Shown: positions 4,672-28,956 of the stretch, piece after piece | How positions within the stretch are numbered: the first letter of the stretch is position 1 | Layout of the letters: each line of letters starts with the position of its first letter | Assembly (NCBI GenBank): GCA_020725465.1 | Contig: DYEY01000024.1 | Span: forward strand, 1-64,000 | Source: Dethiobacter sp. | GTDB lineage: Bacteria; Bacillota; Dethiobacteria; Dethiobacterales; Dethiobacteraceae | Direction: 5' to 3' | Length of the DNA: 64,000 bases | Notes under the pieces: model-generated | Database searches by the model: none | The model's input: the letters and a program-made list of their open reading frames with translations, nothing else | Told to the model about the DNA's origin: nothing | Position numbers and translations under genes: made by a program

Positions 4672-7600
4672 GTGAAAGAGAGAGGAAAACGGTTTTTCAG
4701 CCTGCCGCTGCTTTGTGGCCTGTTGCTGTGTGCCGCGCTGTTATGCACGTTGTTGCCAGGAATGTCGATGGCGGGTACACCGACCTTGTATGTCGATGAA
4801 AACGGTAATATAAAAAGCGCGGTCGCCACGCTGGTCAGCAGCGCAACCGGGACGCTGAACAGTGGCTGGTATGTGGTCAGCGGCAGCGTTACCCGTTCCG
4901 GGACGCTTACCGTAAACGGCGACGTCCGTCTGATCCTCGCGGACGGCGCCTCCCTTACCGTCACCGGTGACCTGCACCAGGCGGGGATAAATGTACCCGT
5001 CGGCCAGCGTCTGACCATCTACGGCCAGGAGGGTGGTACCGGCCGGCTCACGGCCAGCGGCGGCAAGTACGGGGCGGGCATCGGCGGCGGAGTATACGGA
5101 GACAGCGGCCATATTGCCGTCAGCGGCGGCACCGTCACCGCCACAGGGGGAGACGGCGGGGCGGGCATCGGCGGCGGCGCCGACGGCAGCGCCGGGACCA
5201 TTGCCATCAGCGGCGGCAATGTCACGGCCACGGGCGGCGACGGAGATTGGGCTGTTGCAGGGGGAGCGGGCCTCGGCGGCGGAGGTTTCGGAGACGGCGG
5301 GACCATTATCATCAGCGGCGGCAATGTTACGGCCACAGGCGACGCGGGCCTCGGCAACGGCGGGCAGGCGGCCGGCAGCGGCGGGAACATCTACATCACC
5401 GGAGGCAGCGTCCGGGCCAACAGCACCGCCGGCACGCTGCTGGACAGGCCTGTTTCGGAGGGCGGGGTGAGCCTCTGCCTCACCAGGATTACCCTGGCGG
5501 ACGGCGCGGGCGCACCGGCCGGCAATGCTGCCGTTGCACTGCTGGTTACCGATACAAACTCTGCCTATGGGACAAGGGATATGCGTACCGATACCGACGG
5601 CAGGCTCTATGTCTACCTGCCGGCGGGGACGCTGACCACTGCGGCCCAGACCGTCATTGGCGGGGCGCCTTTGGCCCACATAACTTACCGGGGCAGCATC
5701 GGGACCTTAAGCGACGGGTCGGCGAGCGGCACTCTGAGCGAAAGCGGGCCGCCGGTGCAAAGTATGGTTACAGGCGGCAGCGCAAGCTTTACGGCCCCGA
5801 CCCTCGGGCTTACGCCCCTGACCATTACAGCTATCGGCACCATTGACGCCGTCGTTGCCACGGCAGCCCTGGACAGCGGGACGGTGACTGTGACCGGCGT
5901 GGCGGAGGGCAGCACCTCCATCACGGTGACCTACAGCAACGGTTCAGAGGAGGCTGTGCCGGTAGCCGTGCACGGACCTAAGGTTGCCGGCGACTTTATC
6001 GTGGCGACGGCGAACGTCTCAGGATATTCCTACAATCCCGGCGACGGCGCGCTCCTGTTCACAGAGCCCGGCAGCTACACAGTATCCCTGAAGGAAGGCG
6101 TTGCCGAAAGCACGGGTAGCAAAATCCAGGCCAACGGCGGGACGCCCGACAACCCTATTGTCATTATGCTGAATAATGTCAAGATACAAAACGGCTCATG
6201 TGCTTTTGATGTAAAGGGTACTTCCCATGTCAGGTTAATTTTAATGGCCGGCACTGCCAATACCCTGACCAGCGGCCAGTACTACCCCGGAATACGCTGC
6301 CAGGCGGGCGCAACCCTTGCCATAAAAGGCCCGGGCGCCCTTAGCGCCGCAGGGGGAGAATACGGGGCGGGCATCGGCGGCGGATTAGACGGCAGCGGCG
6401 GCCATATTACCGTCAGCGGCGGCACGCTCACCGCCACAGGCGGATACGGCGCCGCGGGCATCGGCGGCGGCGCCGGCACCGGCACCGGCGGCAGCGGGGG
6501 CCATATCACCATCGGCGGCGGCACGCTCACCGCCACGGGCGGCACCGGCGCCGCGGGCATCGGCGGCGGATTCGGCAACAGCGGAGGCGGCAGCGGGGGC
6601 CATATTACCGTCGGCGGCGGCACGCTCACCGCCAGAGGGGGAGACTACGGGGGGGCGGGCATCGGCGGCGGTGGCAGCAGCGGCGCCGGCAGCGGCGCCG
6701 GCGGCAGCGGGGGCCATATTACCATTGGCGGCGGCACGGTCACCGCCAGAGGGGGAACCTACGGGGCGGGCATCGGCGGGGGCGGCGGCGCCGGCATCGG
6801 CACCGGCGGCAGCGGAGGCCATATTACCATCGGCGGCGGCACGGTCACCGCCAGAGGGGGAACCTACGGGGCGGGCATCGGCGGCGGCGGCAGGCAATCC
6901 GGCATCGGCGGCAGCGGGGGCACAGTGGTGATCAGCGGCGGCAGCATCAATACCGCAGCTGGCGGCGGCAACGCCGAGCCCATCGGGCGCGGGGCCTACG
7001 GGGCGGGCAGCGGCTCGCTGCAAAACGTAACCGGCGCAAACGTCTACCTTACGACGGTGACCCTCCAGGGAGTGCAGGAGGCAAAGGCCGTCCTGGACCT
7101 GGTTACCAACGCCGGCTATGCCTATGGCCTTGCCGGCGTTATGACGGACACCGACGGCAGGCTGTACCTCTATCTCCCCCTTAATGCCGCGACCACCGGG
7201 GCAAGGGCGGAAAACAGCGTCTACAGCGGCAGCGTAGCCACCACAAGCGACCCTCTCACCTCCGCCGGCACGCTGACGCTGTCGGGCACCAGGAACGACG
7301 AACTGAGGGTGGTGACAAATCTTAATTACACCTACGGCCTTGACGGTGTCCTGAAGCTCCTGCAGCCCGGCGAGTACGTTGTCTCCATGGCGGCGGGTGT
7401 GGAACAGGCGACGGCGGACCGGATCGTGATCGACGCCCCCGCAAGCACGGAAGCTAACCCCGTGCGGCTCACCATCAATAATGTGCAGATCATACACCAG
7501 GGAAATGCGGCGCCCTGCGCCCTGACCATCAAACCCGGCTCGGCGGTCAGCCTCACCCTTGTGGGCCAGGACAACACGCTTAAAAGCGGCAGGGATTACG

Positions 7601-10600
7601 CCGGCCTTGGCTGTGCCCAGGGCGCGGCCCTTGTCATCGGCGGCGAGGGTTCCCTTACGGCCACGGGGGGCCTCTATGGCGCGGGGATCGGCGGGGGGCG
7701 GGATGAAAACGGCGGTGCCATCACCATTACAGGCGGTACGGTCATAGCCTCCAATAACTACGGAGCCGCAGGCATCGGCGGCGGTTTTGCCGATAGCGGC
7801 GGCGGCTGCGGCGGCGGCACGATCACCATCAGCGGCGGCAGCGTCACCGCCAGCGGCGGCAGCGGCCTGGGTGCGGGGATTGGCGGGGGCGGAAACGGCG
7901 GCAGCGGCGGCACGATCACCATCAGCGGCGGTACCGTCACCGCCACAGGCGGCGGCAGCGGAGCGGCGGGGATCGGCGGGGGCGAACAGGGTGCGGGCGG
8001 CACGGTGGTGATCACCGGCGGCAGCGTCAAAGCCGTAGCCGGGGGCGGCAACGCCGAGCCCATCGGGCGCGGGGCCAACGGGGCGAGCGGCTCGCTGCAA
8101 AACGGCGGCGGCGCCAACGTCTACCTTACGACGGTGACCCTGGCGCGGGGCGGGACAAATACAGCTGACGCTCTGCTCCGTTCGCTGACCGCCAACGTGG
8201 GCTATGCCTATGGTGTAAGCGACGTACGTGCCGACAGCGACGGCAAGCTGTACCTCTATCTGCCCGCGGGCACAAAGACCACGGCGGCCGAGGCTGCCGA
8301 CGCGGCGCAGCCTTCCTTTATCAGGAGATACACAGGCAATATAACGACTAATAACGGGCATACAGGGGCAGGCACGCTACACGCCCCTATCCCCCTTTCC
8401 GCGCCCACCGGCCACGCGTGGGACGGCGCCGTGCCCGGCAAGGCGACGTGGAATCCTGTCCCAAACGCCATCTGGTATACCGTGCAGCTCTACCGGGGCG
8501 GCACAGCGCAGGGCAGCGCCGTCACCGGCGTTATGGGCACGGCGTATGATTTCACCGCCGTCATCGCTTCTGCCGGCACCGGCGACTACACCTTCAAGGT
8601 AGTTGCCGACGGCGACGGATTCACTTACACTGACAGCGACCCCTCGGCCGCAAGCGCGGCGTACAGCTACACTGTACCAGTGGTCAGTGCGGCCATCTCT
8701 CCTGATACCGGCAGCTTTGACCGAAACCCGGCCCACCGGGCCGATGTGAGCACCACCATCACCTGGAACGACGCCGCTGGTGTCACCGACGTCAAGGCCG
8801 GAGGCGCGAGCATCGGCGCGGGCAGCTATGCGGTTTCGGGCAATACCCTCACCATCAGGAAAGAGTACCTGGCGGCGCAGCCCACGGGCAGCCTGGTGCT
8901 GACCGTAGAATTCGACAGGGGCGATGCGGCCACATTGACCGTCACCATCATTGACACCACCCCTGCCCCCGTGGCCCCGACCATCACGGTCCAGCCGTCC
9001 GCCCAGACGGTGACCGCAGGAGAGACGGCCACCTTCAGCGTGACAGCCACGGGCACAGAGCCCTTAAGCTACCAGTGGAAAAAGGGCGGCAGCAACCTGA
9101 CCGACGGCGGCAATATCAGCGGGGCGAACGCGGCCACCTTAACCATAACTAACGCCCAGGCTTCTGATGCGGGAAGCTACACCGTAGAGGTGACGAACAG
9201 CGCCGGCAGCACCACCAGCAATTCAGCCACCCTGACCGTCTCAGCGGCGCCGCCCCTCAGTGCGGCCATCTCTCCTGATACCGGCAGCTTTGACAAAAAC
9301 CCGGCCCACCGGGCCGATGTGGAAACCACCATCACCTGGAACGACGCCACCGGCGTCACCGAGGTCAAGGCGGATGGCGCGAGCATCGGCGCGGGCAGCT
9401 ATGCGGTTTCGGGCAATACCCTCACCATCAGGAAAGAGTACCTGGCGGCGCAGCCCACGGGCAGCCTGGTGCTGACCGTAGAATTTGATGCAGGCGCGCC
9501 GGCGACGCTGACCATCGCCATCTCCGACACCACCCCGCCCGCCTTCGTGGCCGTGACCAATATCTTCGGCGTGCCCTCGACGGCCATAGCGGGGACGCCG
9601 CTCACCCTTACCGGCACAGTCGCTCCGGCCAACGCGACGAATCAAAGCATCGTCTGGAGCATTCAGAACGCGGGGACAACGGGGGCGGCGATTTCCGGAA
9701 ACACGCTGTCTGTGGCGGCGGCGGGGACGGTGGTCGTCAGGGCCACCATCACAAACGGCGCGTCTAAAACGGCGGATTACACGCAGGACTTCTCCATCAC
9801 GGTGGCCACGGCAGGCAGCACCCCCACTGTTCCGCTACCGGCATATATAGCCACTGTTTCAGGTGCCGACATAGCAAAAGCAACCCTGCCGGTCAGTGTC
9901 AACACAAATGCGGGCAGTGCAAAGGCAGACCTGGGGACCCTGGCACAAGACATTTTTGCCGGTTCAAAGACAGCCGTCCTTACCATGCCCGCCATTTCAG
10001 GCGTAGGTTCATATACCATGACCCTGCCCGCCGCTACTCTGTCTGGCTCACCCAGGGAAGGCGCGCTGACCTTTGCCACCGGCGTGGGCAGCGTCACCGT
10101 CCCGGCCGGCATGCTGGCGGGAATGGCAGGAACCGAAGGGGGCAGCGCCGGGATCACCTTCGCCCAGGGCGACAAGTCGGGTTTGCCGGAGGAAGTAAAA
10201 GCAGCCATCGGCGGCCGCCCCATCATCCAGCTCACCCTGACCCTGGACGGTAAGCAGACCGCGTGGCACAACCCAGCTGCGCCGGTAACGGTATCGATCC
10301 CTTATACGCCGACAGCGGCGGAGCGGGAAAACCCTGAGAGCATCGTTGTCTGGTACATAGACGGCAGCGGCAAGGTGGTTTTTGTGCCCAACGGGCGCTA
10401 TGACCCGGCCACCGGCACTGTGGTCTTCACCACCACCCATTTCAGTTACTACGCTGTAAGCTACAATAAAGTAAGTTTTAAGGATGTGGCGGCAGGAGCG
10501 TGGTATAGCAAGGCGGTTTCCTTCATAGCCGCCAGGGAGATCACCAAAGGTACGGGAGGCGGCAATTTCAGCCCGGAGGTCAAGCTGACCAGGGGACAGT

Positions 10601-18655: not shown

Positions 18656-18924
18656 CCAAAAAAACTTTCCGTAACCTGCGCTTTGAAGGACCCAAGGGCT
18701 GGTTTGTGATTTCCCCGGACCTGTGCAAGGGGTGCGGCCTGTGCAAAGAAAAGTGTCCAACCGCTGTTCTGGACTGGTCAAGGGAGCTGGGTGTTTACGG
18801 TACCCCCATCATGGGCCCGGCCAGGCTTAATCAGTGTATCGCCTGCAGCATCTGTGAACTGGTTTGCCCGGATGCGGCCATAAGGGTGGAAAAAAAGGAT
18901 AAAAAGAAAGCAGCCAATAAATAA
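18652..18924 (+). CDS. korD: 2-oxoacid:ferredoxin oxidoreductase, delta / 4Fe-4S ferredoxin subunit
   Basis: A 90-residue protein with two cluster motifs, CKGCGLCKEKCP and CIACSICELVCP, which would bind two [4Fe-4S] clusters. TTG 18652 overlaps the korC stop codon and has GAGGAGGT upstream. The basic C-terminus (EKKDKKKAANK) is unlike the por delta subunit. It completes the korABCD set and passes electrons from the beta subunit to ferredoxin. Confidence 0.9.
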   Translation: MTKKTFRNLRFEGPKGWFVISPDLCKGCGLCKEKCPTAVLDWSRELGVYGTPIMGPARLNQCIACSICELVCPDAAIRVEKKDKKKAANK

Positions 18925-27334: not shown

Positions 27335-27357
27335 AGCAGGTTTCCCTGCTTTATTCG
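27330..27357. terminator. Bidirectional terminator between rsmI and abrB
   Basis: ATAAAGCAGG and CCTGCTTTAT pair around TTT. A- and T-tracts on both sides allow it to end the convergent rsmI and abrB transcripts. Confidence 0.85.
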
Positions 27358-27593
27358 GCTGCCAGGTCATGGATACATTCGTTGCAGACAATACGGCCTT
27401 TGTGATGCTTCACGTTGTCGGCATTGCCGCAAAAAATGCAAGCGGGCTCGTACTTCTTTAAGATGATCTTTTCGCTGTCCACATAGATCTCCAGAGAGTC
27501 CTTCACATCGATGCCAAGGGTACGCCTCAGCTCGATAGGAATAACCACTCTGCCCAACTCGTCTACTTTGCGAACTATCCCGGTTGACTTCAA
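27351..27593 (-). CDS. abrB: AbrB family transition-state regulator with C-terminal four-cysteine tail
   Basis: An 80-residue global repressor of post-exponential genes. The N-terminal swapped-hairpin DNA-binding domain MKSTGIVRKVDELGRVVIPIEL is almost as in Bacillus AbrB. Unlike Bacillus AbrB, the C-terminus has CIFC...CNEC (C52, C55, C70, C73), which could bind zinc. Three consecutive TTG codons occur at 27599, 27596 and 27593; the last is best spaced (8 bases) from GGGGG and gives the standard N-terminus. Upstream are a Spo0A-type box and tandem repeats. Confidence 0.92.
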   Translation of the reverse strand: MKSTGIVRKVDELGRVVIPIELRRTLGIDVKDSLEIYVDSEKIILKKYEPACIFCGNADNVKHHKGRIVCNECIHDLAAE

Positions 27594-27619
27594 CAACAAT
27601 TCCCCCTAATCCTGCAAGA

Positions 27620-27626
27620 TTCGACA
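27620..27626 (-). promoter_or_regulatory. Spo0A box (0A-box) downstream of the abrB promoter
   Basis: On the minus strand the heptamer is TGTCGAA, the exact 0A-box core. It lies just downstream of the abrB -10, the position at which Spo0A represses abrB in Bacillus. Binding is inferred. Confidence 0.6.
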
Positions 27627-27631
27627 TTTTC

Positions 27632-27660
27632 ATTATACCAGCAATTCCCATAAAAAGCAA
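27632..27660 (-). promoter_or_regulatory. Sigma-A promoter of abrB
   Basis: On the minus strand: TTGCTT (27655-27660), a 17-base spacer ending TGG, then TATAAT (27632-27637), so an extended -10 promoter. It lies about 40 bases upstream of the abrB start. Confidence 0.75.
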
Positions 27661-27661
27661 G

Positions 27662-27709
27662 ACTTATTTTTCCACAGACTTATTTTTCCACAGACTTATT
27701 TTTCCACAG
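27662..27709. repeat. Three tandem 16-bp repeats containing DnaA-box-like sequences
   Basis: The unit ACTTATTTTTCCACAG occurs three times head to tail without gaps or mismatches, directly upstream of the abrB -35. Each copy contains TTTTCCACA, which fits the relaxed DnaA box TTWTNCACA. Regular 16-base spacing and position suggest an operator. Confidence 0.9.
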
Positions 27710-28230
27710 ATCATGTTACAGGATCACGGCAACAGATCCGGTTTTTGCGATTTTCTGCGATATAGGTAAAAGCCACCGGCATTTCGGTAAATACCCCCGA
27801 GAAACACCGCGACTGTTTGGCCCTCTTTACATTCAGAGTGTCAGCTGTTTAAATAAAAAAAAGATCATTTGTTTTATATTGTAAAGCCGGTGTAGTGACA
27901 ATGGTTTTGGCAGAGAAGACTGCGAATTCACCACAGTTATCCGATTGGGTCAGAGGAGCCTTTGATCACCAAATACATCGGCAACAACTGTGATGGGATA
28001 AAATTAGCGGTAAAGAATTCCTGCAACGCGAAGGGCATGTCAGCCACATTCTGGTGGCAAATCTAAACAGCCGCCCGATGGCCACAAGCCTGAAGGAGCC
28101 AAGTATATGGCGGCCATGCGGGCGGCTGAGGCTAACGGTTCTCAGACGGTTGCTATATTAGCAGCAATTTTTAGCTTTATCCCTGTGCAAGACTGCGGTT
28201 AAACCCTGAAAAACAGTTCCCTGGACACCA
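27710..28230. other. 521-base stretch without an intact gene
   Basis: Between the abrB repeats and the peroxiredoxin stop I find only short frames without ribosome sites. A frame from ATG 27901 is broken by TGA at 27991, and another near 28025-28200 could encode about 60 residues rich in Ala. These may be remnants of a decayed gene. No repeats or RNA genes are visible. Confidence 0.35.
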
Positions 28231-28956
28231 TTATTCATCGAAAGCTTCTTTTACCTGCCAGACTTTCCATACATTGCCCACCAGCTCAGGTCCGGGTTTC
28301 AGTGTTTGCTTGCCGGGTTTCCAGCCGGAAGGCGTGGCTTCCGTTCCGCCGGAGCCGCGGACGAGTTGAAAAGCCTGAATCTGCCTGATGGTTTCGTTGA
28401 CATTTCTTCCCACGGGAGGCGTCAAAACTTCAAACCCCTGGATGACGCCGTCGGGATCGATGATAAATCTTCCCCTGGTTTCCACGCCGCTGTCCTCGTC
28501 GTAAATACCGTAAAGTTTTCCAATGCTGCCGTCCTGGTCAGAAAGCATCATAAAAGGTATATCTCTGTTGATCATTTTGGAGAGCTCATAGTCGTTCCAC
28601 ATTTTATGGACAAAAACGCTGTCCACGCTTACGGAAAGGACTTCTACTCCCAACTTTTGAAACTCCGGATATTTCTCAGCAACTGCTGAAATTTCTGTTG
28701 CTCAAACAAAGGTAAAATCGCCGGGATAAAAACATAACAGCACCCACTTGCCTCTGTATTCTGAAAGGCTTACATTCATAAATTTACCCTGATAATAGGC
28801 CGGTGCCGTAAAATCAGGGGCCGTTTTGCCCACTTTAACCATCTGGCCTTTCCCTTCCTTCCCCGGTTCAGATGATTCCCCGCCAGTTTTTGGCTCCACA
28901 GGAGCTGTTTTTTTGATGGGTGGTCTCTGGCATCCTGGCTTGAACTCTTCAGGCAC
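28231..28956 (-). CDS. Peroxiredoxin, probable selenoprotein (in-frame TGA at the catalytic residue)
   Basis: A 241-residue peroxiredoxin when the TGA at 28702-28704 is read as selenocysteine (Sec85). Upstream residues give the active-site motif PGDFTFV-U, matching PxxxTxx(C/U), and the same frame continues as [14 protein letters not shown] and [17 protein letters not shown] without break. A stem UUUCAGC/GCUGAGA with loop AGUU begins 10 bases after the UGA, like a bacterial SECIS. GTG 28956 has AAAGGAGGTG upstream. Residues 1-38 are an unusual polar extension. The resolving cysteine is replaced by Thr208 in EATPSGW, so the enzyme would be of 1-Sec type. A disabled gene is the alternative, but it is less likely because the stop sits exactly on the catalytic codon. 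Confidence 0.88.
28674..28704 (-). promoter_or_regulatory. UGA Sec codon and SECIS-like hairpin
   Basis: On the minus strand the UGA (28704-28702) is followed by 10 bases and then a 7-bp stem (28691-28685 with 28680-28674, one G-U pair) closed by the tetraloop AGUU. A G early in a small apical loop at about +18 is what SelB recognises in bacterial SECIS elements. Function is inferred. Confidence 0.6.

Follow-up and report, generated by a model that had tools for sequence, protein, structure and literature searches.

The gene abrB restrains spore formation, and DnaA, the replication starter protein, binds its boxes at the origin. In the window, the whole stretch of 64,000 nucleotides from Dethiobacter sp. 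that was analysed, abrB is preceded by three tandem repeats, each of which holds a DnaA-box-like word. This array raises the question of whether replication was recently connected to sporulation or a repeat happened to match by luck.

Organization of the abrB promoter

The transition-state regulator gene abrB was located at 27351-27599 on the minus strand by its open reading frame and the translation, which matched the AbrB DNA-binding domain, and orthologues with up to 94% identity were present in all 20 family genomes. The start codon is TTG, with the third TTG (27593) as the most likely start. On the minus strand, three copies of CTGTGGAAAAATAAGT are followed by the -35 hexamer TTGCTT (27660-27655), a 17-bp spacer, the -10 hexamer TATAAT (27637-27632) with TGG upstream of it (extended -10), 5 bp, and an exact Spo0A (0A) box, TGTCGAA (27626-27620), the last of which had been pointed out in the earlier note; then come 13 bp, GGGGGAA, and several TTG codons in a row. 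The -35 hexamer is weak (3/6), which explains why a generic promoter scan did not return the abrB promoter, and both its TTG and the position of the -10 hexamer are conserved in the family. In 16 family promoters aligned on the -10 hexamer, TTG at -35, the 17-bp spacer, and TGTCGAA 5-7 bp past the -10 were present without exception, and four family members outside this alignment also contained TGTCGAA at the equivalent site. The predicted promoter core with its Spo0A box is an ordinary arrangement, conserved in 20 of the 20 family genomes.

A second, poorer 0A-like heptamer is usual 10 bp further in the family and is weak here (TGCAGGA). In the abrB promoter of one relative (G009, L016), the 0A box was tandemly duplicated after the -10 (TGTCGAA...TGTCGAA...TGTTGAA), evidence that this part of the promoter undergoes small duplications in relatives as well. 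Spo0A was found in 19 and SpoIVA in 17 of the 20 family genomes, the array genome being included in both counts (its spo0A lies at G000:C57:6433-6744, E 8.5e-46). Sda (PF08970) was absent from all 20 family genomes and present in the control genome, B. subtilis.

The spacer and the extended -10 contain TGGGA-ATTGC-TGGTA (27636-27650, minus strand), a candidate AbrB autorepression site that fits exactly the AbrB pseudo-consensus TGGNA-N5-TGGNA (PMC11497800). This motif occurred in 58 of 104 distinct abrB upstream regions, compared with 0.7 expected in shuffles, and its position in the family is the same, spanning the spacer and the extended -10; the conservation is partly confounded, because the second half of the motif overlaps the extended -10. 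The enrichment fits the autorepression known for abrB of B. subtilis (PMC4366234), and the motif is likely to be a conserved autorepression site. The B. subtilis abrB promoter is similar in having a 0A box near the transcription start and AbrB autorepression, which would act here through the motif in the spacer. Apart from the array, the promoter thus looks ordinary, apparently repressed by Spo0A and probably autorepressed by AbrB. In contrast, no DnaA-box array has been reported at the B. subtilis promoter, and abrB is outside the sets of directly DnaA-regulated genes in PMC8203912.

Upstream of the -35 hexamer, the A-tract AAAAATAAG (27663-27671, minus strand; about -46 to -38) resembles an UP element, and most family promoters have an A-tract there as well. 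This portion of the repeat is the one shared with relatives, and AAAAATAAG agrees at 8 of 9 positions with the proximal UP-subsite consensus.

Structure of the tandem array

Read on the plus strand, the array consists of three mismatch-free copies of ACTTATTTTTCCACAG, as the earlier note had claimed, directly upstream of the abrB -35. The promoter-proximal unit occupies 27662-27677, the second 27678-27693, and the promoter-distal one 27694-27709, and Tandem Repeats Finder described the entire array as 3.2 copies of a 16-bp period at 27660-27710 with 100% match. When up to 3 mismatches were allowed, the window contained one other match to ACTTATTTTTCCACAG, at 18739-18754 (3 mismatches; chance expectation 0.38). 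The note's second reading, that each unit holds a box of the TTWTNCACA type, also proved correct, since all three contain TTTTCCACA, at 27668-27676, 27684-27692, and 27700-27708. These plus-strand boxes are oriented opposite to abrB transcription and lie at about -51 to -43, -67 to -59, and -83 to -75. With a spacing of 16 bp, adjacent boxes face different sides of the helix, which counts against a DnaA-binding array.

Three matches to TTWTNCACA in the 253-bp abrB upstream region were reached in none of 5000 shuffles. Since the tandem copies represent one duplication event, the array boxes count once and not three times, and in a single-copy test, with the repeat collapsed, 5.9% of the shuffled upstream regions contained TTWTNCACA. 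When shuffled 16-bp units were placed in tandem, 9% contained TTWTNCACA and 4.5% contained TTTTCCACA. The array itself came to attention by selection from many windows. Both these frequencies and this selection favour neutral slippage, in which replication slippage would have made three copies of the A-rich flank just upstream of the -35, and the match to a DnaA box would be coincidental and without effect. The perfect identity of the copies, which suggests a young duplication, and the small tandem duplication that produced the extra 0A box in the same promoter region of G009 point in the same direction. The idea that mobile DNA carries a copy of the array was rejected, as plasmids contained no similar sequence and viral contigs no exact match to two units.

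Comparison with relatives

Conservation of the repeats in close relatives, on which the earlier note had made its proposal depend, was not found: the tandem array was present in 0 of the 19 other family genomes, which represent relatives at the genus level and above and include none from the array genome's own genus. A set of 103 further distinct regions upstream of abrB (250 bp) contained an exact TTWTNCACA in one case, that of G011, compared with about 4.5 expected in shuffles. DnaA boxes at abrB as a wider conserved feature were rejected, the count being under the shuffle mean.

This one exact box of G011, TTATGCACA, was in the same orientation as the array and within 1-2 bp of the position of the distal box. 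G011 is the sister of the array genome in the DnaA tree (support 99/98), and AbrB also places it as the nearest relative. Because AbrB and DnaA are encoded on different contigs and agree on G011, these contigs very likely come from one genome. A single box at abrB was also found in G017, which is outside the set of 103 regions, and was absent from the two G017 congeners whose upstream sequence was long enough. From these comparisons, no general link between DnaA and abrB emerges, and a predicted link would extend to two genera at most.

At the position of the array, the relatives mostly contain an A-tract, such as TTTGCAAAAATACGCTTGC in G011, whose aligned counterpart in the unit is the AAAAATA half. 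As the A-tract is ancestral, the unit looks like an A-rich promoter flank joined to a new TGTGG and then triplicated. The combination of an array found in no relative with an A-tract part that is ancestral also agrees with neutral slippage.

The oriC word and the distribution of DnaA boxes

All four boxes upstream of dnaA in the array genome are TTTTCCACA (G000:C11:65583-65638; L131:1041-1096), which means that the abrB boxes carry the oriC word of this lineage itself. In the relatives, the oriC boxes at matching offsets (+, -, -; steps of 14 and 20 bp) mostly read TTATCCACA, and those of G011 are mixed. The dnaA-dnaN gap of the array genome contains one further TTTTCCACA and one TTATTCACA. 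The cluster at the dnaA promoter and the abrB array thus share the same clustered 9-mer, whereas the oriC boxes have mixed orientations with 13-, 14-, and 20-bp offsets and the abrB boxes all point the same way and repeat strictly every 16 bp. The recognition sequence of DnaA, GGRDHTTVMHAHKK in the domain IV recognition helix, is intact and identical or nearly so throughout the family. Altered DnaA specificity as the source of the oriC word change was rejected, the recognition helix being unchanged. Separately, an exact TGTCGAA (reverse) preceded the first oriC box of the array genome (L131) by about 50 bp and was seen in no other family member; a reciprocal Spo0A box at oriC was set aside, since by our own estimate a single match among 19 regions is about the chance level.

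Genome-wide, TTTTCCACA occurred at 66 sites in 2.9 Mb, compared with 34 for the reversed-pattern control, and no two of the 66 sites lay within 900 bp of each other except at oriC and abrB. Same-strand pairs up to 30 bp apart, counted for either TTTTCCACA or TTWTNCACA, were likewise confined to oriC and abrB, and the reversed-pattern control gave none. With three boxes of the host oriC consensus, the abrB promoter has the two or more that would be expected of a DnaA-regulated promoter. Judged by its sequence, the array would be the most obvious DnaA target outside oriC, although such uniqueness says nothing of its use by the cell. Among boxes arising by chance, about 29% (66/228) would be expected to read TTTTCCACA, so the odds gain only about a factor of three from the match to the oriC word.

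Neutral slippage leaves two observations to coincidence, namely that the box has precisely the oriC word specific to this lineage and that boxes cluster nowhere in the 2.9 Mb except at oriC and abrB. Weighing both sides, we consider this explanation rather unlikely, but the strongest of the rival explanations. The oriC word also bears on promoter strength and autoregulation, in which the repeat would multiply UP-like A-tracts or TGGAA half-sites (TGGNA) with no role for DnaA. The position of AAAAATAAG at -46 to -38, which fits the UP proximal subsite, the conservation of the A-tract there, the TGGAA in each repeat unit, and the strong enrichment of TGGNA-N5-TGGNA in abrB promoters, together with the autorepression in B. 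subtilis (PMC4366234), all agree with such a role. However, the 16-bp period matches neither the 10-bp period of TGGNA-N5-TGGNA nor A-tract phasing, and the agreement between CCACA and the oriC word is left unexplained. We regard this explanation as improbable.

Possible function of the array

In B. subtilis, sda is a DnaA-activated inhibitor of Spo0A phosphorylation. The link of DnaA and sda to Spo0A is established in this organism (PMC4447404, PMC8203912), and DnaA delays sporulation through activation of sda (PMC4447404, PMC8203912, PMC12112137). The sda promoter is similar to the abrB promoter described here in that several DnaA boxes precede a negative regulator of sporulation entry, an arrangement that would couple replication initiation to the output of Spo0A (PMC4447404, PMC8203912). 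Here, in contrast to sda, DnaA would target abrB, which is placed downstream of Spo0A or in parallel with it, and the putative DnaA sites are three exact tandem units in a family that lacks sda. In vivo binding in B. subtilis was seen only at the DnaA sites that were strongest in vitro (PMC4447404, PMC8203912).

DnaA-box clusters outside oriC are able to titrate DnaA in B. subtilis, where the deletion of six such clusters led to early initiation (PMC5295017). The abrB array is similar in lying outside oriC, and as a titration cluster it would be a DnaA sink that tunes initiation, located at abrB only through probable proximity to the origin. In contrast to the B. subtilis clusters, it is a single cluster inside a promoter, for which a titration role is hypothetical. 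The window order tmk, holB, rsmI, abrB, metG, tatD, and spoVT, which matches the origin-proximal region of B. subtilis, counts in favour of titration. On the other side, the array has no more than three boxes, it reaches the -35 region, where bound DnaA would hardly spare the promoter, and abrB and oriC are on different contigs. Titration as the role of the array is quite remote in our judgement.

Our preferred reading, held tentatively and at somewhat less than an even chance, is that a recent, lineage-specific array of predicted DnaA-binding sites tunes abrB and probably activates it from upstream. We infer the binding of DnaA, the sign of its effect, and the consequence for sporulation each from the DNA sequence. 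Active DnaA would bind the three boxes, which are wholly upstream of the weak -35 and beside the A-tract, and at low to moderate occupancy would most likely aid RNA polymerase. Expression of abrB would then rise at the start of replication and sporulation would be held off, until Spo0A~P on the downstream 0A box later closes the abrB promoter. With the alternative sign, DnaA would crowd the UP region and cause repression. The boxes leave the -35 and -10 free, which favours upstream activation over occlusion, only slightly, and the nearest box abuts the UP-like A-tract.

Since the family lacks Sda, an increase in AbrB caused by DnaA would have the same outcome as the action of DnaA via sda in B. 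subtilis. A further-reaching proposal is that the checkpoint was rewired via abrB in this Sda-less lineage, with direct DnaA control through an array of the oriC word opposite the Spo0A box, the array having been recently duplicated around a single ancestral box; this is conceivable, yet we regard it as doubtful. Of the link between replication and sporulation through abrB that the earlier note had suggested, the DnaA part appears better supported than was known then, as the oriC word, the only box cluster outside oriC, the intact DnaA helix, and the presence of Spo0A and SpoIVA speak for it, while the conservation of the array did not hold up. None of the papers searched was found to mention DnaA boxes at abrB. 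The array region is a specific hypothesis in one genome and not an established or conserved control region.

If the preferred reading is true, oriC-type boxes and a Spo0A box flanking the abrB promoter would give this lineage a compact, Sda-free link between spore entry and replication, and would illustrate how a single tandem duplication can create a regulatory connection. A neutral array would still caution against interpreting box arrays without relatives.

Other features of the window

Two further features were observed in the window. In a peroxiredoxin frame at 28231-28956 on the minus strand, an in-frame TGA is located at the catalytic cysteine (FTFV-TGA-ATEIS), and the frame read through this TGA matched PrxU (NF040737, E 4.6e-123). 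The frame is likely to encode a selenocysteine peroxiredoxin that ordinary ORF calling split in two. Within the first 8 kb, long GC-rich imperfect tandem repeats with periods of 87-105 extend over 5070-7984 and probably belong to the gene of a repetitive glycine-rich protein.
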